Source: a virus. From it: a stretch of DNA of 30,252 bases. The notes below the pieces were generated by a model, which saw nothing but the letters and a program-made list of their open reading frames with translations, was not told the DNA's origin and did not search any database. Location of the stretch: positions 1 through 30,252 of the IMG/VR virus record IMGVR_UViG_3300021959_008041. One strand, 5' to 3'. This document shows positions 5,837 to 30,237 of the stretch, in pieces. A program made the translations under genes and the position numbers. Within the stretch, counting starts at the first letter, position 1, and every line of letters begins with the position of its first letter.

Positions 5837-5837
5837 A

Positions 5838-7217: not shown

Positions 7218-8445
7218 AAAAGAATTATTGGAAGAAAGCAAAGTTTTTTGTATGTTTCCATGGTTACATCTTAATGTAACTCCTTATGGAAATACCTATC
7301 CTTGTTGTAGTTCTTCTTATACAGATCCATATGGAAATGTTAAGGAAAATTCATTAGAAGAAATATTTAATAATGACAAAATGAAACAATTGCGGCTGAA
7401 TATGCTGCAAGGAAAAGAAACGTCAATTTGTACATATTGTTATAAGCATGAAAAAAGTTCTCCGTTTTCGTTTAGGAAATATGCTTTACAACATTATAGT
7501 AAATATTTTGATGAAATAGTGACTACTACACAAGAAGATGGAACTGTACCTAAATTCAAAATGAAATATTTTGATGTAAGGTTTTCTAATATATGCAACT
7601 TTAAATGTAGAACATGTGGAAAAGAGTTTTCTTCTACATGGGCACAAGAAGATCATGACTTGTATCCTGATCAAGCAGAATCTTGGAATTATAAGATTGT
7701 ACAACATGCAGATAATACTGGAAAATTATTAGAAGATATTAAATCACAAGTATGTCATATTGATTTAGCATATTTTGCAGGCGGCGAGCCTCTTATAACA
7801 GATGAACATTATTTAATTTTAGAGGAAATGATCCGTTTAGATCGTGCTAAAAATATCACATTAAGGTATAACAGTAATGTTAGTAATTTTAAATATAAAA
7901 AATATGATGTTTTTGATTTATGGAAACATTTTAAGAATATTGAATTAAGTGCCTCAATTGATCACTATGGAAAAAGAGCAGAATATATTAGACATGGAAC
8001 AGATTGGGGAGTTGTAGAAGAAAATTTGTTAAAAATAAGAACATTTGATAATATAGAGTATCAATTTAACACTGTTTTATCTGTTTTTAATTATGTAACT
8101 TTACAAGAGTTTTTTGATTATATGATATCTAAGGGATTGCTGCGTAAAACAGATATGATATCAATATATAGAGCAATTACTCCCACTTATTTTTGTTCAC
8201 AAACATTACCTTCTAGTATAAAGGAAATTGGTAATGTAAACACGCAAAAATTGTTAGATTGGTTGTTAGAAAATTATTACTATCAACATGAACATGTTGC
8301 AGATGCTATTTCTTTTACAAATGAAAATGACGGTTGGGATCAGAATAAAAAAGAATTTGCGAAGCACATTCGAGTTAGAGATAAAGTACGTGGAGAAGAT
8401 TTTGTAAAGACATTTCCAGAGTTAGCGAGTATGTATGACTACTAA
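7210..8445 (+). CDS. radical SAM enzyme with N-terminal twitch/SPASM-like domain
   Basis: 411 residues from the ATG at 7210, which overlaps the previous stop by 8 bases. An upstream in-frame start at 7183 would lie inside the previous gene and only add residues before the conserved FCMFPW. The N-terminal cluster is Cys14, Cys32/33, Cys74 and Cys77 in the pattern FCxxPWxH...G...PCC...YGN...L.EIFNN...R..ML.G....CxxCY. That is the pattern normally found in C-terminal SPASM/twitch domains, here placed before the core. The core motif is Cys129-xxx-Cys133-xx-Cys136, with FAGGEP at 189-194. It resembles N-terminal-twitch radical SAM proteins annotated in marine phages. Substrate unknown; an auxiliary cluster usually implies oxidative chemistry or substrate ligation. 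Confidence 0.85.
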   Translation: MNKKELLEESKVFCMFPWLHLNVTPYGNTYPCCSSSYTDPYGNVKENSLEEIFNNDKMKQLRLNMLQGKETSICTYCYKHEKSSPFSFRKYALQHYSKYFDEIVTTTQEDGTVPKFKMKYFDVRFSNICNFKCRTCGKEFSSTWAQEDHDLYPDQAESWNYKIVQHADNTGKLLEDIKSQVCHIDLAYFAGGEPLITDEHYLILEEMIRLDRAKNITLRYNSNVSNFKYKKYDVFDLWKHFKNIELSASIDHYGKRAEYIRHGTDWGVVEENLLKIRTFDNIEYQFNTVLSVFNYVTLQEFFDYMISKGLLRKTDMISIYRAITPTYFCSQTLPSSIKEIGNVNTQKLLDWLLENYYYQHEHVADAISFTNENDGWDQNKKEFAKHIRVRDKVRGEDFVKTFPELASMYDY

Positions 8446-9619
8446 AATTCCTTGTAGATACATTACACATGGATTATCTATAGATCCAAAAGGTGATGTA
8501 AAGCCTTGTTGTGTATGGCAAGGAGTTGAAGCTATGCCTGGAATTAGTTATATAAGTCAAAATAATACAAAAACCATCAATCAAATTTATCATGGTAATA
8601 GATGGAGTGATATAAGAAAATGGTTCGTTAATAATGATACATTACCTCCAATGTGTAATGTTTGCTCTAACATTGAGAGCACTGGCAATAAAAGTCCTCG
8701 ACTTTTAAGCTATGATTTAGAAAATGAAGAAATTCAAAAACAAGCATTTGAAAATATCAATAAAAAAACTGGGCAAATTGACAAAAATTATATTGATTTT
8801 ATAGATATTAGATTTTCTAATTTGTGTAATTTAAAATGTAGAATGTGTGTGCCTGAATGTAGCAGTCTATTGGCAGAAGAGGACGGTATAAATCCTTCTT
8901 ACACATCGTGGGCATCTAGTGATTTTTTGCAACTAATTTTTGATATTTTACCACAAGTTAGGACTATATATTTTGCAGGTGGAGAACCGTTATTAGCAAA
9001 AGAACATTATCAGATTTTAGAAGAATTAATTAGAATAAAACATTTTAATATTAATATATGTTATAATTCTAACGGTACAGTGTTACAATATAAAAATAAG
9101 GATCTTTTTGAATTATGGAAAGATTTTAAAAATATTGATTTTTTAGTTAGCTTAGATCATTATGGAGAGCGAGCTGAGTATATAAGACATCCGTGCGATT
9201 GGAGTAAGATAGAAAAAAATTTATTAAGATTGAAACATTTAAAAAATGTGTCAACAAAAATTATTACTACAATCCAACTTTATAATTATTGTACATACAA
9301 CGAATTTCATGAATATATGAAACAGAGTAAGTTTGCTCATATTAAAAGTTTAGGAACAAGCCTGTTGTCTTATCCTAATTTTTACAGTATTAAAGTTTTG
9401 CCATCAAAATATAAAATAGCTGCAAAAAAATCTATTTCAAATATTATTAATTTAGACAAAGATAATTCAATCTGTGATTTTTCTAATTATGCTGATAGTG
9501 ATGATTTGTGGGATACACTTAAAGATAAATTGAGGGAAGAAATTTTGTATAGAGATAAATTAAGGAATGAAGATTTTTGTAAAACTTTTCCAGAATTAAA
9601 AGGACTATTAAATGACTAA
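8435..9619 (+). CDS. radical SAM enzyme with N-terminal twitch/SPASM-like domain
   Basis: A 394-residue paralogue of the gene before it. N-terminal Cys7, Cys25/26 (PCCVW), Cys74 and Cys77 form the twitch-like set. The leading FCxxPW is reduced to IPCRYITHG, so this copy has diverged at the first ligand. The core is Cys131, Cys135 and Cys138 (CNLKCRMC), followed by YFAGGEP and DHYGERAEYIRH, the latter shared almost exactly with the preceding enzyme. The C-terminal ending (RDKLRNEDFCKTFPEL) matches the ending of the previous enzyme (RDKVRGEDFVKTFPEL), so the whole chain is duplicated. It overlaps its neighbours by 11 and 8 bases. Very AT-rich. Substrate unknown. Confidence 0.82.
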   Translation: MTTKIPCRYITHGLSIDPKGDVKPCCVWQGVEAMPGISYISQNNTKTINQIYHGNRWSDIRKWFVNNDTLPPMCNVCSNIESTGNKSPRLLSYDLENEEIQKQAFENINKKTGQIDKNYIDFIDIRFSNLCNLKCRMCVPECSSLLAEEDGINPSYTSWASSDFLQLIFDILPQVRTIYFAGGEPLLAKEHYQILEELIRIKHFNINICYNSNGTVLQYKNKDLFELWKDFKNIDFLVSLDHYGERAEYIRHPCDWSKIEKNLLRLKHLKNVSTKIITTIQLYNYCTYNEFHEYMKQSKFAHIKSLGTSLLSYPNFYSIKVLPSKYKIAAKKSISNIINLDKDNSICDFSNYADSDDLWDTLKDKLREEILYRDKLRNEDFCKTFPELKGLLND

Positions 9620-10889
9620 AGAAGAGCTTAAAAGTAATCATGTATTTTGTATGATGCCTTGGATTCATATGCATATCTGGCCTAACGGTAATGCATTACC
9701 GTGTTGTATAGCTGATAGCAATGATGTATATGGAAATGTAAATGATAAAACATTAAAAGAAGTATGGAACAACGAGAAGTTCTCTACAATGCGTAAAAAA
9801 ATGTTAGCAGGAGAAGAAATAGAAACTTGTTCTCGTTGTTATGAATTAGAAAAATCTACTAAAATTTATACACTAAGACAAAGTATAAATTTTGATATGA
9901 TAGATAAACATTTTGATTTAGTACAAAGTACAAAAGAAGATGGCACATTAGAAAATCCACGAATGGCATATATGGATATACGGTTTTCTAATATATGTAA
10001 CATGAAGTGTAGAACATGTGGTCCTGAGTTAAGCAGTACTCACGCTCAAGAACATGCAGATATGTGGTCTCCAAAACATACATCAGATTTAATGGGTGTG
10101 GCAGAAGGCCAAGGTCCAGTTATTAGTGTTACACAAGATAATCCTCATGTATGGGAAGATTTAGAACAATATTTGATGGATGTTGAAGAAGTATACTTTG
10201 CGGGGGGAGAAATTTTAATTACTGAAGAACATTATAAACTTTTAGATTACTGGATTGAGCATGGAAAGACAGATGTACGATTACGATATACAACAAATTT
10301 CTCAAACTTTAAATTTAAAAAGAAATCTTTGTTTGATTATTGGAAAAAATTTAGTGATGTTAATGTAGCAGCAAGTATTGATACTTTTGGACACAGAGCT
10401 GAATACATGAGATGGGGAACTGTTTGGAAAACTATTGAAGATAATCGTAGACAAATGATACAAGAATGTCCAAATATTAAATTTGAAATAACGCCTACTA
10501 TATCAATTTATAATGTATATTCGTGGCCTGACATGCATAAAAGGTGGTACGGAAGAGATTTGTTAAATGTTGCAGATGTACGATTTAATATTTTAACAGA
10601 TCCTATTTTTATGCGAATTGATAATATTCCTCCTAATCAAAAAGAAGAGTTAATCAAGTTGTATCAAAGATACTATAACTGGTTAGAATCTTTATGTCCT
10701 GATGATAGTCAGTTACAACATTACACAAGACCAGCATCTAGTGTAATAGATTTTCTTACAAAAAATGAAGGCGATATGTCCTTACTCAAAGAATTTTTCT
10801 TGTTTAATCATGAATTAGACCAATATCGTAAAGAAGATTTTTGGGAAGCATATCCTGAGCTTAATTGGTTGAGGTCATATGTCGATTAA
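9612..10889 (+). CDS. radical SAM enzyme with N-terminal twitch/SPASM-like domain, GGEI variant
   Basis: A 425-residue paralogue. N-terminal Cys13, Cys31/32, Cys73 and Cys76 lie in FCMMPWIH...PCC...YGN...VWNN...MLAG...CSRCY. The core motif Cys129/133/136 (CNMKCRTC) is at the same residue numbers as in the enzyme at 7210-8445, so the domain layout is rigidly conserved. The usual GGEP is GGEI at 198-201, replacing the proline after the SAM-binding Glu. That may be harmless but separates it from its sisters. The insert between core and GGE is longer than in the other copies. The C-terminus ends YRKEDFWEAYPEL, the same terminal motif as the other two. It overlaps its neighbours by 8 and 11 bases. 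Substrate unknown. Confidence 0.85.
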   Translation: MTKEELKSNHVFCMMPWIHMHIWPNGNALPCCIADSNDVYGNVNDKTLKEVWNNEKFSTMRKKMLAGEEIETCSRCYELEKSTKIYTLRQSINFDMIDKHFDLVQSTKEDGTLENPRMAYMDIRFSNICNMKCRTCGPELSSTHAQEHADMWSPKHTSDLMGVAEGQGPVISVTQDNPHVWEDLEQYLMDVEEVYFAGGEILITEEHYKLLDYWIEHGKTDVRLRYTTNFSNFKFKKKSLFDYWKKFSDVNVAASIDTFGHRAEYMRWGTVWKTIEDNRRQMIQECPNIKFEITPTISIYNVYSWPDMHKRWYGRDLLNVADVRFNILTDPIFMRIDNIPPNQKEELIKLYQRYYNWLESLCPDDSQLQHYTRPASSVIDFLTKNEGDMSLLKEFFLFNHELDQYRKEDFWEAYPELNWLRSYVD

Positions 10890-11853
10890 TTTTAATGCAA
10901 TTGTTGCAGAAGAAAAATATATGAATCTTACTTGGCAAGTAAGTAATCAATGTAATTATAGATGTTCGTATTGTAATCCAGGCAATTGGGCAGGATCCTC
11001 AAAAAACGAAGGCAATTTAGACAAATATATTAAAAATTTAGATAAAATATTTTCATTATATAAAGATAAAGGTTACCAAAACTTTAAGTTATTCTTTTCG
11101 GGTGGCGAACCTACTTATTGGGAAAATTTAATCCCAATAATAGAATTTGCAAAAGAGTCATTACCAAATACTACTATTGCAATTAATACCAACCTTAGTC
11201 GCCCGTTAAGATATTGGGAAGAACATTATCATTTGTTTGATGATGTAGTAGCTAGTTATCATATAGAATGGGCTAAGAAAGAACGTTATATAGAAAATGC
11301 AATTTTTTTGTGTGATAAGGTAAATTATTTGTGTACTAAGATGTTATTACACGATGAAAGATTTTGGGAAGTGGTAGAAGTAGGAAAAGAAGTTAGAGAA
11401 AGAGTACCAAACTATAATTTAGAATGGACTCCGTTGTTTGATGAAATGTCTGTTAATACAGGTCCGTGGAAGTATCTTGATGACGAAAAGAATAAATTTA
11501 TAAATGAATCAGTTTTTGAAACTGTTATGCGGAAAGATAAACCTTGGAAAGAAAGCAAAACTGTTAGTCTTGTAAAATATATTGATGGTACTTTAGAACC
11601 AGTAAATAGTAATACGATTATCGCCAATAGACAAAACTTTTTCAAATCATGGAAATGTTTTGTTGACGATGCTTTGTTTATTAATCCTACTGGAAATATA
11701 TCAAGTGCAAGTTGTGGAGTTGGTAATAATCATGGTAACATTTTAGACGATGATATTGAACTTACTTATTCTCCTGTAATATGTAGTAAAGACCATTGTC
11801 ATTGTGGTACAGATATTATTATACCAAAAGAGAAAATTTTAGATGGATTTTAA
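10879..11853 (+). CDS. radical SAM enzyme with C-terminal auxiliary-cluster cysteines
   Basis: 324 residues. The core motif is near the N-terminus (Cys25, Cys29, Cys32; CNYRCSYC) and FFSGGEPTYW follows near residue 75. The C-terminal third holds Cys260, Cys279, Cys302, Cys307 and Cys309, a SPASM-like set ending in CxxxxCxC. The protein at 27675-28610 has the same architecture and nearly the same Cys spacing, so the two are paralogues 16 kb apart. The ATG is chosen because gaggt (10871-10875) precedes it and it overlaps the previous stop by 11 bases, as elsewhere in this operon. It differs from the three preceding enzymes, whose auxiliary Cys are N-terminal. Substrate unknown. Confidence 0.82.
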   Translation: MSINFNAIVAEEKYMNLTWQVSNQCNYRCSYCNPGNWAGSSKNEGNLDKYIKNLDKIFSLYKDKGYQNFKLFFSGGEPTYWENLIPIIEFAKESLPNTTIAINTNLSRPLRYWEEHYHLFDDVVASYHIEWAKKERYIENAIFLCDKVNYLCTKMLLHDERFWEVVEVGKEVRERVPNYNLEWTPLFDEMSVNTGPWKYLDDEKNKFINESVFETVMRKDKPWKESKTVSLVKYIDGTLEPVNSNTIIANRQNFFKSWKCFVDDALFINPTGNISSASCGVGNNHGNILDDDIELTYSPVICSKDHCHCGTDIIIPKEKILDGF

Positions 11854-13954
11854 TTTAAGAGGACTAGCAAAAAAAGAATTAGTTATTCCTGACAAATTAG
11901 ATAAGGCTTCTGCAAATGATAAACATTTATCAATGCTAGAAGTTATTAAACCTTACGCAAGAGATACTAAACTAGTTGAGAAAAATCTAACTCCAGTATA
12001 TGTTGATTATCAAACAAGAAATACAAGTATTATTTGGGTATTATGTCCTGAATGGTCACCATCCTTTCCTCCTTTTAATTTAGCTAGATTATCTGGTGTT
12101 GCTAAATCAGCCGGATATAAGTCAGAAATTTTAGATATTAACATTGAGGCATATCGTTCTTACATGGATACCTTTCAACATGAGTTGTCATATCCTCTTT
12201 GGAGTCCTACTAGCAGTTGGCGTTGGACTGGAGATTCATATTGGAATGATATTCATCCACACTTAGAATCAATTCTGCAAAAAAAGGTTGATTATATTCT
12301 TGAGAAATCTCCTAATATTGTAGGATTCACCCTTTATTATATTAATGATAAACCGTCTGTATGGATGATGGAAAGAATAAGAGAAAAAAATCCAGATATA
12401 AAGTTTGCTGTTGGCGGTAGTAATGTGCAAAAAGGTTTTTTTAAAACTTTACCTATCTATGATTATGTTGTAGCAGGCGAAGGTGAAGCAGCAATCTTAG
12501 ATATTCTAGACGATATTGAAAATAACAAATTAAGGGCATCTACTGTTTTTCATGTTGGAAAATTAAATCAACGGTTGAGTATAAATGGCATGCCTATGCC
12601 TGATTATGAAAGTATTGATTTTACATTGTATGATATTCCTAATGGAGTTAATACAGAGTTTAGTAGAGGATGTACAGCAAAATGTTCTTTTTGCGAAGAG
12701 ACACATTTTTGGAAATACAGGCAAAGAACTGCTGTAGATGTTCTTACAGAAGTTGAATGGTTGTATTACAACAAAGGAACAACTGTATTTTGGTTTATTG
12801 ATTCTTTAGTTAACGGAAACCCTGCTGAATTACGAGCCTTCTGCAAGGCAGTTGATGCAAAAGGTCTTGATATATACTGGACTGGGTATGCTAGATGCGA
12901 TCATAGGATGGATTTAGATTATTTTCACGATCTAAAAGCAGGCGGATGTATCATGCTTAATTATGGTATTGAAAGTGGATCTCAAAATGTTCTTAATGAT
13001 ATGCATAAAGGCGTAACTATTGAAGCAATGGAGATGAATTTAAAAAACTGTAAAGAAGTTGGAATTTTTGCTGCTACTAATTGGATTGTAGGGTTTCCAA
13101 CTGAAACTTTGCAAGATTTTGCTAATTCTATGACCTTTTTATGGCGTAATAGAAATTATAATATTAATAACATTGCAGCAGGTGTTGGATTTGCACAAGG
13201 TCCCGAAACATTAGCAGGACAAAATCCTGAAAGATTCAATTTGTCTCCTTTCAAGTATATGGGTTTTTGGATCACTAAAGATTTATCAATGGGCGGTATG
13301 CATGTTATGCATAGAGTTAAATTTTTCTCAATGTTTATTGACATGATGGTTGGTTGTACAGATATGCCATTCCAGTATCCAGTACGTCGTGATCTTATTG
13401 ATTACCATTATACATTAGAGTGGCTACAAGAAGGTATTGATGATAAACCTTTCATGAAAGAAATAGACGAATACGAAGAATTTGACTATAACATTATTGA
13501 TTTAGGAGAAAACCAGTATGCTGATACATTAGTAAATGAAATTTGGCCTTTGCTAAGGCTGATGTGGCTATCACGAGGTGCTTTTCGTATCACTATACTG
13601 TTTACCCCTGAATTAGATCTAGAAGAATTTGGAACACAATTTGGGCCTGAACAATTTTCTGCTACTTATAAATTTGAAATAAACGAGCTAGGCAAATGGA
13701 AAGCAGATTTTGAGTATAAGTTTAATCAAGTTCCAAATTATCTAACGCACAAGCCCGAAGCATTTATTACTCAAGATTATTCTAGATTGCAGAGTAATGC
13801 TGCTAAAAGTGCAAGAAAGTTAGCAAAGCCTAAATGGTCAATTGAAGAGGGTAGAGATTCTGAAGATATCCGTGTATTAATTAAAGAGGAAAAAGTGTTA
13901 AATGATTTGGATTTTAGTTTTAAGTATCGATATAAAGGAAGAGGTAAATGGTAA
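11843..13954 (+). CDS. B12-binding-domain radical SAM protein
   Basis: 703 residues. Residues about 63-225 look like a cobalamin-binding-type Rossmann domain: VLCPEWSPSFPPFNLARLSGV, then VGFTLYY, then VVAGEGEAA at 209-217. The GEGE element is typical of B12-radical SAM proteins. The radical SAM motif is Cys277, Cys281 and Cys284 in SRGCTAKCSFC, followed by YGIESGSQ and GFPTET, both normal for this class (methyltransferases, ring-forming enzymes, BchE-like proteins). A DxHxxG cobalamin-ligand motif is not visible, as in many members of the class. About 230 further residues form a C-terminal region I do not recognise, rich in aromatic and acidic residues with a basic tail. A methyl transfer or C-C bond reaction is possible; the substrate is unknown. 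It overlaps the previous gene by 11 bases. Confidence 0.8.
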   Translation: MDFNLRGLAKKELVIPDKLDKASANDKHLSMLEVIKPYARDTKLVEKNLTPVYVDYQTRNTSIIWVLCPEWSPSFPPFNLARLSGVAKSAGYKSEILDINIEAYRSYMDTFQHELSYPLWSPTSSWRWTGDSYWNDIHPHLESILQKKVDYILEKSPNIVGFTLYYINDKPSVWMMERIREKNPDIKFAVGGSNVQKGFFKTLPIYDYVVAGEGEAAILDILDDIENNKLRASTVFHVGKLNQRLSINGMPMPDYESIDFTLYDIPNGVNTEFSRGCTAKCSFCEETHFWKYRQRTAVDVLTEVEWLYYNKGTTVFWFIDSLVNGNPAELRAFCKAVDAKGLDIYWTGYARCDHRMDLDYFHDLKAGGCIMLNYGIESGSQNVLNDMHKGVTIEAMEMNLKNCKEVGIFAATNWIVGFPTETLQDFANSMTFLWRNRNYNINNIAAGVGFAQGPETLAGQNPERFNLSPFKYMGFWITKDLSMGGMHVMHRVKFFSMFIDMMVGCTDMPFQYPVRRDLIDYHYTLEWLQEGIDDKPFMKEIDEYEEFDYNIIDLGENQYADTLVNEIWPLLRLMWLSRGAFRITILFTPELDLEEFGTQFGPEQFSATYKFEINELGKWKADFEYKFNQVPNYLTHKPEAFITQDYSRLQSNAAKSARKLAKPKWSIEEGRDSEDIRVLIKEEKVLNDLDFSFKYRYKGRGKW

Positions 13955-17279: not shown

Positions 17280-18490
17280 TATAAATTGATTGTAACTATT
17301 TTTTGCTCTAAAACATCATTTTGTTTGAGTAATGTTTCGTAGTTGTGAATAATAACATCTTTTTGTCCTAACATTATAACATCTACTTTTTCTTTCCATG
17401 AATATTTTTCTAGGCGGGCTGCTAATTTAGTACACATATCAACCAGTAGCTCAATTCTCATTACATTGTTGAACTCATCGTCCCAGCTATAATCAAATAG
17501 AGATTCGTATAATTTAAATCCATAATTTGTCAATGCTTTATTGATACCTACATTACCATAAACTAAAAATGGCATCATAGCACCTATGGGTTTAAAAGTT
17601 TTTTCTGAATAGAAAAGATTAGAACTCCAATTAGTTTCGCCTGCTATATTAATAAGATATTTAGAGTATAATTTTAAATAAGTAATGTCAAATAAACCAT
17701 AATTAAACAAAAACTTGGTAGTGTCAACATGTAAAGGTAACTTTTTTGACCAAGAAAGTATATCATCATAGTCAATATTGTAATGTTTTTTAGACATTAT
17801 TTGTAATGATGTTTTTGCTATGTAATCTTGTGATAAACTGTAATAATTTTTATATGTATTTTTATGATCTATGAGATAATTAAACATTATTCTATGATCT
17901 CTACAAATTCGACTAAGATGCAAGAATACATTATTAGGATTTTGCTTCAATTTCTTTTTATACATCTGGTCAAAGTATTTCTCAGGATCATTTAATGTAA
18001 ATTTAATTTTCTTATTATATGTTTCTGCTACAAAATCTAAATCTTGTGCCATTGCTACTAAAAAATGGTTATAAGCAATTAGTTTTACATCCGGTTCAAA
18101 TCTAGTTCTAGCTGAATAATTTCTATATTCTTTTGCAATGTCAAGGTTAGCTGTTATAAAAACAAGTTTTGAAAAAGGAATACCATATGCTGATGCACTG
18201 GCACATAATGGAACGTAAAATTGTTGCATGTTCCAGCCTTCGGCGTCAGTTTGAAAAACTATATGATATTCAGGATCGTTTACTAAAGAATGAATTATAT
18301 TATCATTTATATTATCAAAGAAGTGCGGTAAATTAATAGTGATATTTCTAGTGGTCCATGATATGACAAGTAGTTTATCTCGATTAAAGTATTTTCGTAA
18401 TAATTTTTCAGCTATGCAGGCGTCCTCTTCATCTACTACTCGGTAATATGTATTAAATAACTCTATATCTCTAACATATTTGTTAAGCAT
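17279..18490 (-). CDS. SEK-motif glycosyltransferase-like protein (divergent)
   Basis: A 403-residue protein with FYSEKTFKPIGAMMPFLVYG at 293-312, then NYGFKLYESLFDYSWDDE. This matches the C-terminal element of the two genes downstream (SEK...P, GF, D-E) and also the gene at 21316-22290 (FFSEKIWKPI...RPFILLG). GETNWSS just before the motif (284-290) corresponds to ETTFSS in that protein, so those two are the closer pair. The N-terminal 250 residues have no match I can see. It overlaps the upstream gene by 8 bases and the downstream gene by one. A GT-B-type transferase is a reasonable but unproven call. Confidence 0.5.
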   Translation of the reverse strand: MLNKYVRDIELFNTYYRVVDEEDACIAEKLLRKYFNRDKLLVISWTTRNITINLPHFFDNINDNIIHSLVNDPEYHIVFQTDAEGWNMQQFYVPLCASASAYGIPFSKLVFITANLDIAKEYRNYSARTRFEPDVKLIAYNHFLVAMAQDLDFVAETYNKKIKFTLNDPEKYFDQMYKKKLKQNPNNVFLHLSRICRDHRIMFNYLIDHKNTYKNYYSLSQDYIAKTSLQIMSKKHYNIDYDDILSWSKKLPLHVDTTKFLFNYGLFDITYLKLYSKYLINIAGETNWSSNLFYSEKTFKPIGAMMPFLVYGNVGINKALTNYGFKLYESLFDYSWDDEFNNVMRIELLVDMCTKLAARLEKYSWKEKVDVIMLGQKDVIIHNYETLLKQNDVLEQKIVTINL

Positions 18491-18983
18491 ATGATCCTGT
18501 GATTTGTAGTGTGTACCGTGTATCTTTGCCTACGTTAGATGCTGCATGAATAACTCCAGGTTCCCAAAGAACATAATCTCCAGCACTCCAATTTACTATA
18601 CCTTGATTATCAATTTCAAAATAATGCCCAGGTTTCCAATCTTCTAAAAATACTAATGCTCGTATAACATTGTCATATGGCACACTAAAAACTTCTGAAT
18701 ATTTCTCATACTTGTCAATATGCGGAGGCATTACTATCATGCTAGTCATTTTATAAAAGACATAGCCGCACTTAGAAAGATTTAGCATCTTAGAAAGCGG
18801 CTCAACATAGTCAGGCATAGGATTTCTAGAGTCATACATTTCGCCAGATACATTATGATGATACCAGCCCTGCCTTTTCCAGTCTAATCTCTCTACTTCA
18901 GATATAGGCTGTCTAATATATTTGTATTTTTTATAATCATCATTCCAATATACTGGAACAGTTCCTCTAGTCCACACGTTCAA
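18483..18983 (-). CDS. 2OG-Fe(II)-oxygenase-like jelly-roll protein
   Basis: 166 residues. His88-Ile-Asp90 (PPHID) and His146 (GVIHAASN) form the HxD...H iron triad of cupin-fold 2-oxoglutarate oxygenases, and Arg156 (DTRYTLQ) is placed like the 2-oxoglutarate-binding Arg. The order HxD, RALVFLEDW, GDYVLWEPG, H, R is normal for the fold. Likely reaction: hydroxylation or a related oxidation of an unknown substrate. The start is not settled: TTG at 18983 gives 166 residues, while GTG at 18977 has a better-spaced GGA upstream and would remove two residues. The gene overlaps the amidinotransferase gene upstream by 17 bases. A second protein with the same triad is at 29686-30237. Confidence 0.65.
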   Translation of the reverse strand: MNVWTRGTVPVYWNDDYKKYKYIRQPISEVERLDWKRQGWYHHNVSGEMYDSRNPMPDYVEPLSKMLNLSKCGYVFYKMTSMIVMPPHIDKYEKYSEVFSVPYDNVIRALVFLEDWKPGHYFEIDNQGIVNWSAGDYVLWEPGVIHAASNVGKDTRYTLQITGSYA

Positions 18984-22290: not shown

Positions 22291-23504
22291 GATTTATTGG
22301 ACTTGGAAAATTAGGTTTGCCTTGTGCAGAGGTGATAGCTAGTAAGAATCATTTAGTAGAAGGTTATGATGTTGCTACTGTATACTCAAACTCAGTGTTA
22401 GTTACAGATTCAATAGAGCTTGCAGTAAGAAATAAAAAAATTGTATTTGTTGCTGTACCAACACCGCATGATAAAGCATATGATGGAGTTAAACCTACAA
22501 CTAATCTACCACCTAAAGACTTTTCGTATGACATTGTTAAGGAAGTTTTATTAGAAGCTAATAATCATATGGATAAGGATCAGTTGTTAGTTCTTATATC
22601 TACTGTATTACCTGGCACCGTAAGGAGGCAGTTAGAACCTCTTGTAACTAATACTAGATTTGTATACAATCCTTATCTTATTGCTATGGGATCTGTAGCT
22701 TGGGACATGGTTAATCCTGAGATGGTTATGATTGGTACAGAGGACGGTAGGGAAACAGGCGATGCCAGAGAGTTAATTGATTTCTATAAAACTATAATGG
22801 AGAATAATCCACGTTATGAAGTTGGTACTTGGGACGAGTGTGAGTGTATAAAGGTTTTCTATAATACTTTTATTTCTGCAAAACTATCCTTAGTAAATAT
22901 GATGCAAGATGTAGCAGAGCGTCAAGGTAATATTAATGTTGATGTAGTAACTAACGCACTTGCTAAGTCAACTCAACGTATTATGGGTCCGCAATATATG
23001 ACAGCAGGAATGGGCGACGGAGGAGCTTGTCATCCTAGAGATAATATTGCATTACGATATCTAGCACAAAATTTAGAGCTAGGTTATGATATGTTTGAAT
23101 CTATTATGTTAGCAAGAGACATACAAGCAGAGAATCTAGCCAAGTTACTTGTTAAATTAGCTACTGATGACAAAATGGAGTTAATTATTCATGGTAAAGC
23201 ATATAAACCGTCAGTGGGATATACCGAAGGAAGTTATTCTTTATTAGTTGGTTATTTTTGTCAGCAGTTAGGAGTTGAACCAGTGTACGTTGATCTTGAA
23301 ACAGGAGATAATTATCGACCTAATGCTCCATGTGTAATACTATTAGCTCATAATTCTCAAGTAACCTACAAATATATGGATCATATGGATACAGTAAAGT
23401 TATATTGTGATATTCCAAACGGTTCTATTGTAGTAGATCCTTGGAGAAACTATGTTAATGATAAATGTAAAGTAATTCATTACGGTAATACAAGAAATGT
23501 TTGA
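22281..23504 (+). CDS. UDP-glucose/GDP-mannose-type nucleotide-sugar 6-dehydrogenase
   Basis: 407 residues, close to the family's usual 390-450. FIGLGKLGLP at 5-14 is the GxGxxG NAD-binding fold with Asp30 (GYD) after the second strand. VAVPTPHD is the family's V-x-T-P element, STVLPGT near 108 is standard, FYNTFISAKLSLVNMM near 193 is the conserved helix with the active-site Asn/Lys, and Cys250 in GDGGACHPRD is the catalytic Cys. The enzyme oxidises C6 of a nucleotide sugar twice to give a uronic acid donor, using 2 NAD+. UDP-glucose is the most common substrate, but GDP-mannose or UDP-HexNAc cannot be excluded. It follows one glycosyltransferase-like gene and precedes another, consistent with making a donor for them. 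Confidence 0.88.
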   Translation: MQIGFIGLGKLGLPCAEVIASKNHLVEGYDVATVYSNSVLVTDSIELAVRNKKIVFVAVPTPHDKAYDGVKPTTNLPPKDFSYDIVKEVLLEANNHMDKDQLLVLISTVLPGTVRRQLEPLVTNTRFVYNPYLIAMGSVAWDMVNPEMVMIGTEDGRETGDARELIDFYKTIMENNPRYEVGTWDECECIKVFYNTFISAKLSLVNMMQDVAERQGNINVDVVTNALAKSTQRIMGPQYMTAGMGDGGACHPRDNIALRYLAQNLELGYDMFESIMLARDIQAENLAKLLVKLATDDKMELIIHGKAYKPSVGYTEGSYSLLVGYFCQQLGVEPVYVDLETGDNYRPNAPCVILLAHNSQVTYKYMDHMDTVKLYCDIPNGSIVVDPWRNYVNDKCKVIHYGNTRNV

Positions 23505-25758
23505 TATATTTTATATTGCACCAACTAAAGATATACAATTCAAAAAATTAAAGACTAAATTTTTTACGATAAAGTTTGCGAAAGATATATTTGAAGCTCA
23601 ACGTAAATCTGTAACTAAGTTTTTTTATACTGTATATGATAATTGTATTGTATCATCTGATTTTAATTTTGATTATGTGCCAGATGACTGCAGTCAAGAT
23701 GTACCGCATCTCTTTTTGAATGATGTATATTATGACAATATTGCTTTAATACCAAAAAAATACCATATATCAGCAAGAGAAGCTGAATACAGATTTTTTG
23801 TTAATAAAAAACAAGTAGAAATTTTAGCTAGCACCCCAAAGAAATATGATAGATTTACAATCCAAAATTTTACTGACTATAAATACGCAATGGAATGCTC
23901 TGAAACAGAAATGTTTTACGCATCGTCGCCAAATATTGATATATCTCAATTTAATTTTGATATGTATTTTGAGTATTCTGATTTATATAATAGACACGAA
24001 AATCACGCATTTATACATAGAGTAGAAGGAATAGATTATTATAATGGTTTGTTTCTGCTATCTAAACATAAACCAGTCACAGCAAGAGAAATTGAGTATA
24101 GACATTTAGTAGGCAGAAAAGAACATAACATCGTAGCCAGTACACCTGTACAATATGACGTATTTAATGTAGAGACTTATGATGATTATTTACACGCATT
24201 AGATAATACAAAAACAGAATTATTTTGGGCAACTACCCCAAACATTGAAACTTCATACTATAGATTTGATTTATATTTTACACATGATGATGAATATAAT
24301 AGAAAAGAAAATCATGCATTAGCGCATCTAGTTAATGGTAAGAAATATCACAATGGATTGTTTCTATTATCCAAACATAAACCGTTGTCACGTAAAGAGA
24401 TAGAGTATAGGCATTTAGTTAGTGGCAAAGAATGGGATATAGTTGGGTCATTTGCTACAACATATGAAAGATTTGTCATTGATTCATATGAGATGTACAA
24501 ATATGCAATGGAGTGGTCAAAAACTGAATTATTTTGGGCATGTACTCCAAATATTAACACAGGTGACTTTGACTTTTCTCAAATATACTTTACACACGAT
24601 GACGAATATAATAGAAAAGAAAATCATGCCTTTATACATCATGTTGACGGAGTAGATTATTATAATGGTTTGTTTCTGCTATCTAAACATAAACCAGTTA
24701 CTGAAAGAGAAATAGAATACAGACATTTAGTATCACGTAAAGAACACGATCTTGTAGCAAGCGGTCCAGTAGAATATGATAGTTTTATAGTTGATACATA
24801 TGAGGATTATCAACACGCATTAACACAATCCTCAACTGAGTTATTTTATGCTATACCAACTCAAGTACAAGATGTAGAATTACCTAAGTTATATTTTACA
24901 CACGATAACGAATATCATAGAAAAGAAAATCATACATTTAAAAACTTATGTAATAGTGAAGAAAAAGATAATGGTGTATTTTTATGTTCAAAATATAAAG
25001 AACTTAGTAAAAGAGAGTTAGAACACAGACATATTGTCTACAAAAAACCGTGGGATATCATTGTATCTAAGCATAAACCATATGACGTAGTGTTTATGAG
25101 CTATGACGAAGCCGCAGCAGATAAGCATTATGAAGAACTGCTTATAAAAGCACCTCATGCTACTCGTGTTCATGGTGTAAAAGGAATTCATCAAGCACAT
25201 ATACAGGCAGCAAAGCAGTCTACATCAGAAATGGTATGGATTGTTGATGCTGACGCTGTTTTAATGGAAGATTTTAATTTTGATTTGTTTGTTGAGAAAT
25301 GGGATAGGGAAACGGTTCATGTGTGGCGTTCAAAAAATCCAATAAATGACTTAGTTTATGGTTATGGAGGAGTAAAATTGTTTCCTCGAGAGCTAACGAT
25401 AAATATGGATACATCTAAGCCTGATATGACAACGTCAATTACAGAAAGATTTAGAGCAGTACAGGTAATATCAAATATTACAGCATTTAATGTAGATGAG
25501 TTTTCTACTTGGAAGTCTGCTTTCAGAGAATGTTGTAAGTTATCTTCTAAAGTAATTGACAGGCAAAAAGCAGTTGAAACTGAAGAACGTTTAGACATTT
25601 GGTGTACAGTAGGAGCTGATAAAGAATTTGGAGAATATGCTATAGCTGGCGCTAAAGCAGGGAGAGAATATGGTTATCAAAATAAAAATAATGTCGCAGC
25701 ATTAAAATTAATAAATGATTTTGATTGGTTAAGGAATTATTATGGCAAAGAATATTAA
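23497..25758 (+). CDS. tandem-repeat protein fused to a C-terminal DxD glycosyltransferase-like domain
   Basis: 753 residues. Residues about 94-505 are four repeats of 102-104 residues. Each begins REIEYRHLV..KE..IVAS, passes YD.F.V.TY.DY..AL..T.ELFWA..PNI and a ...YFTHDDEYNRKENHAF block, and ends NGLFLLSKHKPV. A degenerate copy precedes them (1-93) and a partial one follows (506-528). Residues 529-753 are a GT-A-like domain starting YDVVFMSYDE, with RVHGVKG, Asp584-Ala-Asp586, and YGYGGVK. This domain also exists alone at 4910-5836. The repeats are His-, Asp- and aromatic-rich and could bind glycan or acceptor, or present the catalytic domain; their role is unknown. No signal peptide. It overlaps its neighbours by 8 and 17 bases. 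Confidence 0.7.
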   Translation: MFDIFYIAPTKDIQFKKLKTKFFTIKFAKDIFEAQRKSVTKFFYTVYDNCIVSSDFNFDYVPDDCSQDVPHLFLNDVYYDNIALIPKKYHISAREAEYRFFVNKKQVEILASTPKKYDRFTIQNFTDYKYAMECSETEMFYASSPNIDISQFNFDMYFEYSDLYNRHENHAFIHRVEGIDYYNGLFLLSKHKPVTAREIEYRHLVGRKEHNIVASTPVQYDVFNVETYDDYLHALDNTKTELFWATTPNIETSYYRFDLYFTHDDEYNRKENHALAHLVNGKKYHNGLFLLSKHKPLSRKEIEYRHLVSGKEWDIVGSFATTYERFVIDSYEMYKYAMEWSKTELFWACTPNINTGDFDFSQIYFTHDDEYNRKENHAFIHHVDGVDYYNGLFLLSKHKPVTEREIEYRHLVSRKEHDLVASGPVEYDSFIVDTYEDYQHALTQSSTELFYAIPTQVQDVELPKLYFTHDNEYHRKENHTFKNLCNSEEKDNGVFLCSKYKELSKRELEHRHIVYKKPWDIIVSKHKPYDVVFMSYDEAAADKHYEELLIKAPHATRVHGVKGIHQAHIQAAKQSTSEMVWIVDADAVLMEDFNFDLFVEKWDRETVHVWRSKNPINDLVYGYGGVKLFPRELTINMDTSKPDMTTSITERFRAVQVISNITAFNVDEFSTWKSAFRECCKLSSKVIDRQKAVETEERLDIWCTVGADKEFGEYAIAGAKAGREYGYQNKNNVAALKLINDFDWLRNYYGKEY
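23776..25080 (+). repeat. in-frame tandem repeats of about 309 bases inside the 753-residue gene
   Basis: Unit boundaries by the first base of the (R/K)E(I/A)EYR codons are 23776, 24085, 24394, 24706 and, for the truncated last copy, 25012. Units are therefore 309, 309, 312 and 306 bases long. Units 1 and 3 share YKYAME and the FIH..(E/D)G(I/V)DYYNG ending, while units 2 and 4 share (D/E)DY.HAL. The array therefore looks like A-B-A-B. Confidence 0.75.
24032..24698 (+). repeat. 46-base perfect direct repeat (24032-24077 and 24653-24698)
   Basis: The same 46 bases occur at both positions, encoding the end of units 1 and 3 of the repeat protein (DYYNGLFLLSKHKPV). The equivalent stretch between units 2 and 3 differs at several synonymous and non-synonymous sites. 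The copies are 621 bases apart, two repeat units, pointing to duplication or gene conversion of a two-unit block. Confidence 0.7.
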
Positions 25759-26437
25759 GTGGAACGATGATAGAGACATCTATGGTCGAATGTTATTATT
25801 AACTGGCTCTTTTTTGTTTACAGGATTAAGAAATGCTGTAGACCATTATGATGCTGATCTAACAGACGCACTGTCTTGGGGTCAATTAAAAAGTAAAAGA
25901 TGGCTAATACTTACTTTGGAAGAGCTAGATAGAGATCTAGGTATGATTTTTATGGGCGCAGGATGGTATGCAATATTAGCTGGCATGATATTTGAAAGTA
26001 AACTAAAGTTTAACAAAATAAGATCTTTTGACATTGACGAAGAATGTGCCGCTATAGCAGATACAATAAATAGAAAATACGTTGCTGATGGATGGAAGTT
26101 TAAAGCAACCACACTTAACATACAAAATATAGAATATCCTAATTGTTATATAACAAAAAAGTTTAACGGCGACGAGCAAAGTATGACAGAAACGCCTGAT
26201 ACTGTAATTAATACCTCATGTGAACATATTGTAGATTTTCAACAATGGTATGAACGAATTCCTGAAGGTACCTTGTGTGTTTTACAAACAAATAACTACT
26301 TTGAAATTGCGGATCATATAAATTGTGTTGAAACATTGTCTGATTTCGCTGAACAAACACCATTTCAAGAGCTGTTATATGAAGGAGATTTAGATTGTAA
26401 TAAGTATTTGCGATTTATGAGGATTGGTATTAAATAA
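25742..26437 (+). CDS. class I SAM-dependent methyltransferase-like protein
   Basis: 231 residues. MIFMGAGWYAILA at 68-80 resembles motif I (the Gly-rich SAM loop), and IRSFDIDEECAAIA follows with Asp97/Asp99 where the SAM-ribose acidic residue is expected. VINTSCEHI at 155-163 is the motif IV position, followed by QQWYERIPEGTLCVLQTNN, typical of the post-motif strand. The order and spacing fit a small Rossmann methyltransferase of the nicotianamine-synthase-like or phage type. Substrate unknown. Its start lies 17 bases inside the previous gene. Its stop abuts the next ATG with no gap (TAAATG), so it is tightly coupled to the halogenase-like gene. Confidence 0.6.
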   Translation: MAKNIKWNDDRDIYGRMLLLTGSFLFTGLRNAVDHYDADLTDALSWGQLKSKRWLILTLEELDRDLGMIFMGAGWYAILAGMIFESKLKFNKIRSFDIDEECAAIADTINRKYVADGWKFKATTLNIQNIEYPNCYITKKFNGDEQSMTETPDTVINTSCEHIVDFQQWYERIPEGTLCVLQTNNYFEIADHINCVETLSDFAEQTPFQELLYEGDLDCNKYLRFMRIGIK

Positions 26438-27694
26438 ATGTTAAAAATTTGTATAATTGGAGGTGGAACTGCTGGGTGGATGGCAGCTGGTTACATAGAA
26501 AGTCAAATAGAAGATGTAGAAATAACACTAATAGAAAGTAAATCAGTGCCTACTATTGGAGTAGGTGAATCAACTCTTCCACAAGTCAAAACGTTTTTTG
26601 ACACTATTGGCATTTCTACAGATATATGGGTAAACGAGTGCGATGCAATTGTTAAAGAAGGTAACAGTAAGCATAATTGGAATGATCCAAATAGTGAAGA
26701 TGATTATTTAGGTTATACGTTTTGGTGTAACGATGATAATATTTTTGACAATTGGATACATGGTTACTTTAACAAACAATATGACAAGCACCAAATAAAC
26801 GATGATTTATATTATGGTAACGATAGAAGCGACTTCTTACATACTGCTTATCATTTAAATGCTGAAAAAATACCAAGAGTCATAAAAAATCATTGTAAAA
26901 AAGTTATTCATGTATATGATACAGTTGAGTCATTGCCAAAAGGTTTTGATTATTACTTATTATGCACAGGCCCGTCAAAAAAACTTGTAAAAGATAAAAC
27001 TTTATTTGATATTTCTACATACCACAAAGTAAATAGGGCATGGGTAGCTCCGTTACATTTAAAGCCAAATACTGCGATTGATAAATTTACAAGAAGCATT
27101 GCTCGTAAACACGGATGGCAATTTTATATTGATACTATCAATAAAACAGGAACAGGCTATGTATTTTCTAGTGATTTTGTTAGTGAAGATGATGCGTTGA
27201 TTGAATTTAATGAATATTTAGAAAAAGATAATCGCACCACAATACATAAACCTAATTTATTAAGATGGAATCCTGGTTGGTTAAAAGAAGCATGGCAAAC
27301 AACTGAAGATGGAGAAGTAATTGCTATAGGTTTAGCTAATGGTTTTATAGATCCATTAGAATCAAATGCTCTGTTTATGATACAATACACATCAACAGCA
27401 TTTGTAGATAGTCTTAAGAAAAGAAATCCAAAAAAAATATATAATAGAGCTTTACATAAACTTTGGTACTTAAATTCTACATATATTAGATTATTTTATC
27501 TATTAGCAAGAAGAAATGATAGCAGTTTTTGGAAATATTACAAACAATTTGACATTGACCCATTTAAAAAAGAATTGTGGGCAAATTATAAATTGATGAG
27601 TAATAAATATACTAATTTATTTCCTAATGCGCTTTGGGCAACAACAGCACTTTATTTTGATGAATGGGACTATTATGTTAGAAATAACAAATGA
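26438..27694 (+). CDS. flavin-dependent halogenase-like protein (tryptophan halogenase family)
   Basis: 418 residues against about 500 for tryptophan halogenases. GGGTAGWMAA at 8-17 is the FAD-binding GxGxxG. TIGVGESTLP at 39-48 is the family's second flavin motif. Lys73 (CDAIVKEG) is where the catalytic Lys of PrnA-type enzymes lies. Glu308 (DPLESN) matches the active-site Glu. The diagnostic WxWxIP motif, however, is changed to WQFYID at 227-232, so halogenation is not assured. A cyanophage flavin halogenase (VirX1) that iodinates small molecules is known, so a viral enzyme of this family has precedent. It would need reduced FAD from a host or phage reductase; none is seen here. Flanked by a methyltransferase and a radical SAM gene. 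Confidence 0.75.
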   Translation: MLKICIIGGGTAGWMAAGYIESQIEDVEITLIESKSVPTIGVGESTLPQVKTFFDTIGISTDIWVNECDAIVKEGNSKHNWNDPNSEDDYLGYTFWCNDDNIFDNWIHGYFNKQYDKHQINDDLYYGNDRSDFLHTAYHLNAEKIPRVIKNHCKKVIHVYDTVESLPKGFDYYLLCTGPSKKLVKDKTLFDISTYHKVNRAWVAPLHLKPNTAIDKFTRSIARKHGWQFYIDTINKTGTGYVFSSDFVSEDDALIEFNEYLEKDNRTTIHKPNLLRWNPGWLKEAWQTTEDGEVIAIGLANGFIDPLESNALFMIQYTSTAFVDSLKKRNPKKIYNRALHKLWYLNSTYIRLFYLLARRNDSSFWKYYKQFDIDPFKKELWANYKLMSNKYTNLFPNALWATTALYFDEWDYYVRNNK

Positions 27695-28610
27695 TCAGCC
27701 TAATAGTATGCATGCCGAATGGGTACTAACAAATGTTTGTAATTATAAGTGTAGTTATTGTGATCCTAGGTTAAATGAAGGTACACATCGTTGGCCCAAT
27801 TTGAAAGATTCCTTACGTTTTTGGAATTATGTTCATAGCAATGTTAATGAAAATAATAAAATGTTAACATTAACTGGTGGTGAGCCTACCTTATGGCCTA
27901 ATTTAATTCCTTTTTTGCAAGGTATAGATAGTATGTATGAAACTGCTATAGTAAGTAATGGAAGCCGTTCCTTAAAATATTGGGATACACTTATAAATTC
28001 AGTAGACTTAACTCAAATAACTATAAGTGTTCATTTTGAGTATGCAGATTTTGAACATTTGTGTAAAGTAATAGATATAGTTGGACATTCAAGTTGTCTT
28101 ACAGTTTTAATTATGTATGATATAAAAAATATACAATTATGTAAAGAATTTGCAGAAAAAGTTGTAGATTTAAATTTGCCTTGTAGATTAATGATAAAGC
28201 CAATTACAGATAGAACGTATACAAAAGATAATAAGGCTCTAGATTATACTATAGAACAGAAAAAGTTTATACAAGAATTTAATTACAATAATCAAAATAA
28301 GAAAAGTAATAACAAAACAGCAGTAGATGTTTATATAGACGGAGTCAAGTATAATATTAGTAAGTTATTAGAATTAGTGGCAGAAAATAAGCATAGTTTT
28401 AAAGGATGGATTTGTAACACTGGATATAACAGACTAGTAGTATGGTATGATGGAAATGTATATGGTGCCCAATGTTCAACAGCTAAGAAAAAACCATTAG
28501 GAAATATAAAAAATACACATCATGATATAGATGTAAATCCTATAATATGTAATACAAACTTTTGTGCTTGCATTCCTGATATTAGGATACCAAAAAGGAT
28601 TAGACAATAG
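27675..28610 (+). CDS. radical SAM enzyme with C-terminal auxiliary-cluster cysteines
   Basis: 311 residues from the ATG at 27675. An upstream in-frame ATG at 27627 would add 16 residues that are only the other frame of the halogenase gene. The core motif is Cys22, Cys26 and Cys29 (CNYKCSYC), with LTGGEPTLWPNLIP near residue 68. C-terminal Cys247, 267, 292, 297 and 299 have spacings of 20, 25, 5 and 2, against 19, 23, 5 and 2 in the paralogue at 10879-11853. Both end (D/C)xxIxIPK. The shared set suggests an identical auxiliary Fe-S cluster and related substrates. It overlaps the halogenase-like gene by 20 bases, so the two are probably translated together. Confidence 0.82.
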   Translation: MLEITNDQPNSMHAEWVLTNVCNYKCSYCDPRLNEGTHRWPNLKDSLRFWNYVHSNVNENNKMLTLTGGEPTLWPNLIPFLQGIDSMYETAIVSNGSRSLKYWDTLINSVDLTQITISVHFEYADFEHLCKVIDIVGHSSCLTVLIMYDIKNIQLCKEFAEKVVDLNLPCRLMIKPITDRTYTKDNKALDYTIEQKKFIQEFNYNNQNKKSNNKTAVDVYIDGVKYNISKLLELVAENKHSFKGWICNTGYNRLVVWYDGNVYGAQCSTAKKKPLGNIKNTHHDIDVNPIICNTNFCACIPDIRIPKRIRQ

Positions 28611-29689
28611 TGTACAAATATTCAGACATTCGTAAAATTCACTTAGAAGTTACGCAAAGATGTAATGCGGCATGCCCTATGTGCGATAGAAATCAAAATG
28701 GCGGCTCTATTAATCCTCATATAAATCTAGACGAATTAACACTACAAGATTGTCAAAAAATATTTGAGCCAAAGTTTATACAACAGTTGGACACAATGTA
28801 TATGTGCGGCAACCTCGGCGATCCAATATCTGCTAAAGACACAATAAAAATATTTGACTATTTTAGGGATCACAACGAAAAAATGTGGCTGTCTATGAAC
28901 ACAAATGGCGGCGCACGGGACAGAGAGTGGTGGCAAATGCTTGCTAGGATACTTAGGAAGCCCGCTGCTGTGATTTTTTCAGTGGATGGGTTAGCTGATA
29001 CTAACCATCTATACCGTCAAGGCGTGGTATGGGAACACGTTGAGATGAATATGCGGACATTTATCGAAGCCGGCGGCAGGGCTCGTTGGGATTTTTTAAT
29101 ATTTGAGCATAATCAGCATCAAGTTGAAGAAGCACGAGCATTGGCAGATGCATGGGGTGTTGAACGATTTGTAGCCAAAAAAACAGGACGGTTTGTAACT
29201 GCTAAAGTAGAAGCAAAAGAAAAACATCAAGCAGTAAATCGCAAAGGCGATAAAACTGTAGAACTTAAAAAACCAAAAGAGGAGTATAGAAATGCAGCCG
29301 TGGAAAGTATGGACTCTCTTATCAGCCGCTATGGTAGTATGGACAATTATTACGATTCTGCTGCTATTCAGTGCAAGGTAAAAGAAGAAGGTAATTTGTT
29401 TATTACAGCAGAAGGGTTGGCCCTGCCTTGTTGTTGGACTGCTGGTAGAATGTATAAATGGTGGCACAAAGATCCAAAGGTTGAACAAATATGGGAATAT
29501 ATAGATGTTGTAGGAGGCAAAGACGCTATCAATGCCAAGCTCCATTCGTTAAAATCTGTATTTGATACAAAGATTTTTAACATTATAGAGGCAAGCTGGC
29601 AGAAACCATCCTGCGCTTCAGGTAAGTTAAAAGTATGTGCTACAAAATGTGGAGTAGAGTTTGATCCATTTGGAGAACAATATAAATGA
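28610..29689 (+). CDS. radical SAM/SPASM enzyme
   Basis: 359 residues from a GTG that overlaps the previous TAG by one base. The core motif is Cys18, Cys22 and Cys25 (CNAACPMC). MCGNLGDP near residue 64 takes the place of the GGEP motif, as in many SPASM enzymes. The C-terminal SPASM-like region has Cys255, Cys274/275 (LPCCW), Cys335, Cys343 and Cys347 (LKVCATKCG). It differs from the other seven radical SAM genes in this window. It is also clearly G+C-richer: 29 of 60 bases in 28921-28980 against 17 of 60 in 8101-8160. SPASM enzymes often act on peptides or on sugar-type substrates; nothing here fixes which. Confidence 0.82.
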   Translation: MYKYSDIRKIHLEVTQRCNAACPMCDRNQNGGSINPHINLDELTLQDCQKIFEPKFIQQLDTMYMCGNLGDPISAKDTIKIFDYFRDHNEKMWLSMNTNGGARDREWWQMLARILRKPAAVIFSVDGLADTNHLYRQGVVWEHVEMNMRTFIEAGGRARWDFLIFEHNQHQVEEARALADAWGVERFVAKKTGRFVTAKVEAKEKHQAVNRKGDKTVELKKPKEEYRNAAVESMDSLISRYGSMDNYYDSAAIQCKVKEEGNLFITAEGLALPCCWTAGRMYKWWHKDPKVEQIWEYIDVVGGKDAINAKLHSLKSVFDTKIFNIIEASWQKPSCASGKLKVCATKCGVEFDPFGEQYK

Positions 29690-30237
29690 CAACGTTTACA
29701 ATCATAAATAGATTTCCTAACGATTTATTAACAAAAGTTAAAGCTATATGGTACGAAGGTGTTTGGGAAAATATTACGGAGGCAAATCCTGGTATAATGT
29801 GGCATTATTGGTTACAGACAGATCACGAGCTATTTGATTATTTTCCTAAAGAGGCATTAACTTTAGAATATTATTTGAATCCTCCGCATGTAATCAATGC
29901 AGTTCATTTAGACAGAGGTAGGCTTTCAGCTTTAAACATTCCTGTTCAAGTTGATATTAACAACAGTTTTTTTGGTATAGGAAAGACTGATGATTTAAAT
30001 TACTATACTCCTAAAGAAGATGACTATACATTTGAAACGTCTGAGAAAGGAGAAAAAGGTTTTTTTGAGTATGAAAAAGATAAGATGTTACTGTATAATT
30101 TAGAAAAACCTGTATTGTTTAACACTAAAGTTCCTCATGGGTTAGTAAATAACTCAGACACAGAGCGTATTCTATTAAGCGTAACGTTTTCTAAAACCTA
30201 TAATGAAATGAAAGATATAATAAAAGAATGGATATGA
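29686..30237 (+). CDS. 2OG-Fe(II)-oxygenase-like jelly-roll protein
   Basis: 183 residues. His74-Leu-Asp76 (AVHLDRGR) and His151 (KVPHGLVNN) form the HxD...H iron site, and Arg161 (TERILLSVTF) is placed as the 2-oxoglutarate anchor. INxxH, NIPVQVD and the 'VPHxVxN' turn recall the aspartyl/prolyl-hydroxylase-like branch found in marine phages. It probably hydroxylates a substrate made or held by the preceding enzymes, or a protein residue. The ATG has ggag upstream (about 10-base spacing) and overlaps the previous stop as ATGA. Despite sharing the triad, it shows no clear sequence match to the oxygenase-like protein at 18483-18983 outside those residues. Confidence 0.6.
   Translation: MTTFTIINRFPNDLLTKVKAIWYEGVWENITEANPGIMWHYWLQTDHELFDYFPKEALTLEYYLNPPHVINAVHLDRGRLSALNIPVQVDINNSFFGIGKTDDLNYYTPKEDDYTFETSEKGEKGFFEYEKDKMLLYNLEKPVLFNTKVPHGLVNNSDTERILLSVTFSKTYNEMKDIIKEWI

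Follow-up and report, generated by a model that had tools for sequence, protein, structure and literature searches.

Flavin-dependent halogenases (FDHs) introduce chlorine, bromine or iodine into other molecules, and a gene carried by a viral contig raises the question of whether a relative of these enzymes, whose WxWxIP motif is changed, is still a halogenase. The stretch analysed (the window) has 30,252 nucleotides and represents the entire 30252-base contig of virus record IMGVR_UViG_3300021959_008041. A previous reading of the letters (the sequence-only reading) had offered an unusual halogenase or a hydroxylase/oxidase evolved from one as explanations. These are still the right pair of alternatives, although the likeness to the cyanophage iodinase VirX1 that accompanied the proposal turned out to be weak.

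Identity of the gene

The gene is a 418-codon open reading frame running from ATG to stop, with a product of 418 aa.

26438..27694, plus strand: compact FDH relative of the WxF clade described below, 418 aa (PF04820, phrog_2928, AlphaFold2, structural alignment)

Residues 3-402 of the protein match Pfam Trp_halogenase PF04820 with an E value of 3.8e-59 (201 bits, cut-off 21), and further matches were obtained with phrog_2928 'tryptophan halogenase' (E 4.5e-73) and with the RebH chain in the PDB (E 3.5e-39); among the NCBIfam halogenase models none matched at its cut-off. By these profile and PDB matches, which far exceed chance, the protein is homologous to FDHs. Its length is 93-120 aa below that of PyrH (511), RebH and VirX1 (about 530) and PrnA (538), a larger shortfall than the approximately 80 residues relative to tryptophan halogenases estimated previously.

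Catalytic residues and the altered motif

The following elements of the protein are relevant to catalysis.

26459..26476, plus strand: GGGTAG, residues 8-13, GxGxxG dinucleotide-binding motif (sequence; aligns to the RebH FAD motif)
26654..26656, plus strand: Lys73, catalytic Lys position, Lys79 of PrnA/RebH (HMM alignment)
26663..26665, plus strand: Asn76, catalytic Lys +3 (47/47 WxF-clade members, about 0% of other homologues)
27116..27133, plus strand: WQFYID, residues 227-232, at the place of WxWxIP (alignment to RebH)
27266..27268, plus strand: Trp277, clade-specific (47/47 clade members, 3% of others)
27344..27370, plus strand: FIDPLESNA, residues 303-311, halide-loop motif with Glu308 and Asp305 (alignment, published motif)

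In the HMM alignment Lys73 and WQFYID land on the columns of the RebH catalytic Lys and WxWxIP motif (GWTWKIP), respectively, and Glu308 falls on the PLES glutamate. The sequence-only reading had thus located exactly the reading frame, the retained GGGTAG, Lys73 and Glu308, and the replacement of WxWxIP by WQFYID at 227-232. The comparison with VirX1, PrnA and RebH that it had suggested confirms the kinship with FDHs, the conserved Lys and Glu columns and the changed motif, with VirX1 showing about 27% identity. Where WxWxIP is taken as a criterion for FDHs, the window protein reads WQFYID, and the AlphaFold2 model predicts a strand at residues 226-232 covering this segment. FIDPLE (303-308) matches the FDH motif FX[DE]PX[EFL] (PMC8407142), and Asp305 is located three residues ahead of Glu308. 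The F, P and S of the Fx.Px.Sx.G motif are also present, with Ala at the G position, at which variants are on record (PMC8407142).

The 285 lower-ranking homologues keep the Lys column in 276 cases and the Glu column in 268; the second Trp of the motif is kept in 252 and the motif Pro in 224. Since loss of the Pro is common among homologues, its change is unremarkable at the level of the alignment, in which the set of replacements around W229F is the real signal. Position 76 is Ile or Val, and position 277 Phe, Met or Ile, in most other homologues, and a computational study of PrnA counted an Ile at the spacing of catalytic Lys +3 as part of the first sphere surrounding Trp and HOCl (PMC9764358). 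Trp96 is constant in the compact group described below, but the surrounding alignment is gappy and we placed no weight on it. The Trp4 motif of tryptophan halogenases (YYxxF...NFW...YY or YHG..PYS; definitions in PMC8269204) is not visible in the C-terminal sequence of the window protein, and thus free tryptophan appears an unlikely substrate.

The WxWxIP motif has been proposed to prevent monooxygenation by shielding the substrate from the flavin, a role inferred in the literature (PMC10696468, PMC8407142). Because some proven FDHs, Bmp5 among them, do without the motif (PMC8407142), it is typical of the family and not strictly defining.

A virus-borne clade with coordinated replacements

Isolate phages contain only distant relatives of the window protein (23-31% identity), Megablast of window positions 1-25000 against them gave no match, and a scan of viral contigs with the single protein sequence retrieved nothing. 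Profile scans of IMG/VR yielded a group of similar length at 36-50% identity, and 322 extracted sequences were aligned. The compact group comprises the window protein and 32 viral homologues, mostly of 389-422 aa (one pair has 481 aa), and a further 14 viral proteins of 515-658 aa also carry the W-to-F change. We refer to these 47 proteins as the WxF clade; many are near-duplicates, and reduction to 90% identity leaves 19 compact members and 6 long ones. With the trait columns left out of tree building, the clade has a support of 99/93 (bootstrap/SH-aLRT) and the compact subclade, including the window protein, of 100/98. The sister group (L078, L096 and L064) retains WxW, and the compact subclade is ~100 residues shorter through loss. 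As the long members carry WxF too, the motif change is most simply explained as older than the shortening of the chain.

W229F, Asn76 and Trp277 are found in 47/47 members of the clade and Asp305, essentially absent elsewhere, in 44/47; the four together occur in no other sampled homologue. Lys73 and Glu308 are invariant across the 47 members, which diverge to about 30% identity. On this alignment the altered motif is a signature of the whole clade, as are the three other replacements, which in the sequence lie near the catalytic Lys, the motif and Glu308. A private mutation or sequencing error behind WQFYID was ruled out by the change being common to the clade, as was a truncated gene by the relatives of 389-422 aa that end in the same region. 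Sampled homologues with a residue other than Lys at the Lys column have also lost the second Trp of the motif, and most of them the Glu (some of these rows being poorly aligned); in contrast, the WxF clade loses the Trp alone.

In this sampling, members of the clade were seen in viral contigs only. None appeared among 398 genomes from a single phylum, where the best full-length match had about 33-34% identity and the frames about 500 aa, nor among 80 retained matches of a genome-contig scan whose patterns would miss sequences with GWW and FxDPLE. A limited literature search found no description of the WxF clade, which on that basis appears new, phage halogenases themselves being already known. 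The sequence places the window gene, in shortened form, within a virus-borne FDH branch that has altered residues near the catalytic pair.

Selection and predicted fold

The gene family is under purifying selection, with dN/dS values of 0.034-0.084 across 17 close pairs, of which many overlap. The structure prediction that had been suggested gave, with AlphaFold2 (input of 27 window and locus sequences), a model with a pLDDT of 91.9 and a pTM of 0.90. Its matches among solved structures (VIA-align) are FDHs along the whole chain, with Z scores of 42.7 for SttH, 41.8 for BrvH, 39.8 for PrnA and 34.8 for VirX1; FDHs of other types score lower, CndH reaching 29.6. The top alignments (SttH, BrvH, PrnA) show an rmsd of 2.8 over 392-403 residues, and model residues 1-418 align to 5-477 of PrnA and 6-482 of SttH. 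The predicted structure is a complete FDH fold.

Proposed reaction and alternative explanations

We propose that the window protein is probably a working two-component FDH of the virus-borne WxF clade, trimmed by about 100 residues. All its catalytic steps are inferred from characterised FDHs, in which hypohalous acid (HOX) travels about 10 angstroms to the Lys and Glu and then halogenates the substrate (PMC8407142, PMC10696468). A flavin reductase of the host would supply FADH2, which would bind to the Rossmann domain and react with O2 to give the flavin C4a-hydroperoxide; none was found among the window proteins scanned. A halide held at the FIDPLESNA loop would convert the hydroperoxide into HOX, which would reach Lys73 and Glu308 and there be positioned and activated for attack on the substrate. 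W229F, the Ile-to-Asn change at 76, Trp277 and Asp305 may reshape the reaction site, and the substrate is probably other than free tryptophan. Halogenation is favoured because the protein has the residues for each step, and the invariance of Lys73 and Glu308, the low dN/dS, the FDH fold, the fit of the halide-loop motif, the profile and PDB matches and the contrast with homologues that have lost the Lys along with the Trp all support it. Counting against it, WxWxIP, the proposed block to monooxygenation, is changed in every member of the clade, and the Lys and Glu may have been retained because another reaction needs them.

A second possibility is that a halogenase gave rise to a flavin monooxygenase, either a hydroxylase or an oxidase, in which the smaller Phe229 and the polar Asn76 would expose the substrate directly to the flavin hydroperoxide and Lys73 and Glu308 would now bind the substrate or protonate the peroxide. 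The proposed shielding of substrate from flavin by WxWxIP (PMC10696468, PMC8407142) and the joint clade-wide change of W229F, N76, W277 and D305 speak for such an enzyme. However, Lys73 and Glu308 are invariant and the halide loop still fits the FDH consensus, Trp to Phe is a mild replacement, and proven FDHs such as Bmp5 also miss the motif; we therefore consider this explanation unlikely. Extended to the clade, the idea would make it a natural conversion of halogenase to oxygenase, or a dual enzyme, in which the four replacements removed the flavin-substrate shield and Lys73 and Glu308 took a new role, a proposal that we regard as rather improbable. A promiscuous viral iodinase with an open active site, like VirX1, is doubtful: both are phage FDHs retaining Lys and Glu and the folds match (Z 34.8), but VirX1 shares about 27% identity, belongs to a separate clade, where it sits among ordinary phage halogenases, has an intact WVWNIP and is not among the nearest structures. 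VirX1 is too distant a relative for its iodinase activity to be extended to the window protein; halide preference is not readable from sequence, and VirX1-like iodination finds no specific support there. Finally, the shortened chain and deviating motif might be taken as the loss of function of a decaying or inactive remnant, which we judge very improbable given dN/dS values of 0.03-0.08, invariant catalytic residues, a high-confidence complete predicted fold and the recurrence of this short form across many viral contigs.

Genomic setting of the halogenase

Two genes of the window flank the halogenase directly.

25742..26437, plus strand: gene abutting the halogenase on its upstream side, with weak likeness to methyltransferases (a pelagiphage Mosig protein, a putative methyltransferase, is 25% identical)
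27675..28610, plus strand: downstream overlapping radical SAM gene, reading frame open from 27627 (PF04055, E 5.7e-9)

The upstream gene matched nothing in Pfam or NCBIfam, and its stop codon (26435-26437) lies immediately before the halogenase ATG. The radical SAM frame overlaps the halogenase by 68 nt from its first ATG at 27627, or by 20 nt from the ATG at 27675, and the domain layout favours the latter start. The abutment and the overlap noticed in the sequence-only reading are therefore both present, but the tailoring cassette deduced from them is weakly founded, as the halogenases of the closest relatives reside in different neighbourhoods. A conserved cassette of halogenase, methyltransferase and radical SAM genes is unsupported, the neighbours of the window halogenase not being common to those relatives; the methyltransferase-like gene recurs in 2 of 150 non-bacterial loci. 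An association with twitch/SPASM radical SAM genes is suggestive (8/32 compact, 2/14 long WxF and 5/104 other loci, near-duplicates included).

Other genes of the window include glycosyltransferase-like genes, a B12-binding radical SAM, a DegT-type aminotransferase and a sugar dehydrogenase. The 30-kb fragment holds at least 7 radical SAM genes (5829-11853 and 27675-29689); that at 9612-10889 matches NF033640 (N-terminal twitch radical SAM) with 377 bits, and its neighbours look alike. Two small proteins, at 18483-18983 on the minus strand and 29686-30237 on the plus strand, gave no match in Pfam but carry, as judged by eye, the HxD...H...R arrangement characteristic of 2OG-Fe(II) oxygenases. 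Positions 23497-25758 encode a 753-aa protein with 4-5 copies of a repeat of roughly 100 residues (EIEYRHLV...FYIDLYFTHDDEYNRKENHA-like), followed by a glycosyltransferase-like end.

Three settings recur in the clade. In L024, L028, L181, L188, L189, L191, L195 and L199 the halogenase immediately follows a 2OG/aspartyl-hydroxylase-like gene, which it overlaps by a short stretch; in L020, L025, L181, L183, L192 and others its neighbours are a GNAT-like protein and a short AMP-binding one; and in 13 loci an SbmA/BacA-like transporter precedes it. In the last setting, L018 (4607-5578) and 12 more compact-clade loci have a full-length SbmA/BacA-like peptide transporter just 5' of the halogenase (PF05992, E 2e-138 for L018). 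The viral contigs L095, L054 and L070 carry 3-4 different halogenase paralogues within 10 kb, among 2OG-oxygenase-like genes.

The GNAT-like and AMP-binding pair also adjoins the WxW sister proteins of L078, L096 and L064. L020, L183, L096 and L078 share one gene order (about 6400-12800 of each), with a WxF halogenase in L020 and L183 and a short WxW halogenase in L096 and L078. Between L020 and L096 the flanking proteins are 96-100% identical (AMP-binding 86%), whereas the GNAT protein is 66% and the halogenase 37% identical. Near-identical flanks around a diverged halogenase and GNAT gene suggest that halogenase alleles were exchanged, and the GNAT gene may have moved with them.

Significance and comparison with known systems

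A recent review names as still open the question of whether WxWxIP stops FDHs from hydroxylating, and proposes to answer it by engineering the motif (PMC10696468). The WxF clade is a natural version of that experiment, with the second Trp replaced throughout, three further positions changed alongside it and the catalytic residues kept; the WxW sister group stands as its contrast, and the L020/L096 locus type offers a matched WxF/WxW pair at the same place. The short chain may help structural work and biocatalysis. Should the enzyme be an ordinary halogenase, the clade nonetheless extends the diversity of halogenases known from viruses.

'Tryptophan halogenases' of phages were already being catalogued in 2010, if not earlier (PMC3037559), and VirX1 (cyanophage Syn10, PDB 6qgm) has already been characterised (PMC8407142). 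VirX1 shares with the window protein a phage origin, the FDH fold and the Lys and Glu, and differs in its 530 aa, the intact motif and its place in the tree. The 'prnA' genes of T4-like cyanophages and pelagiphage HTVC008M belong to the same PHROG family, phrog_2928, as the window gene and often have tail-fibre or virion genes and 2OG-Fe(II) oxygenases nearby. These isolate homologues are 23-31% identical to the window protein, most have 465-546 aa, and those aligned keep Trp at the second motif position (Tyr in P-TIM40_47), where the window protein has Phe. The halogenase relatives of Campylobacter phage IBB_35, S-PM2 and Syn1 (L006, L009 and L011) have Gln at the catalytic Glu position, a change that slows PrnA about 100-fold (PMC8407142). 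BrvH and other FDHs without Trp4 (group C of PMC8269204) resemble the window protein in the FDH fold and in having no Trp4-type motif, whereas BrvH is a 511-aa bacterial enzyme that keeps WxWxIP. With the tryptophan halogenases of FDH variant A (PrnA, RebH, Thal, SttH and PyrH) the window protein has in common the fold, the FAD motif, the Lys, the Glu and GVGE(S/A)T(L/I)P; it is 21-27% identical to them, 93-120 aa shorter and without a recognisable Trp4 motif, and it carries WQF for WxW, Asn at Lys +3, Trp277 and Asp305.
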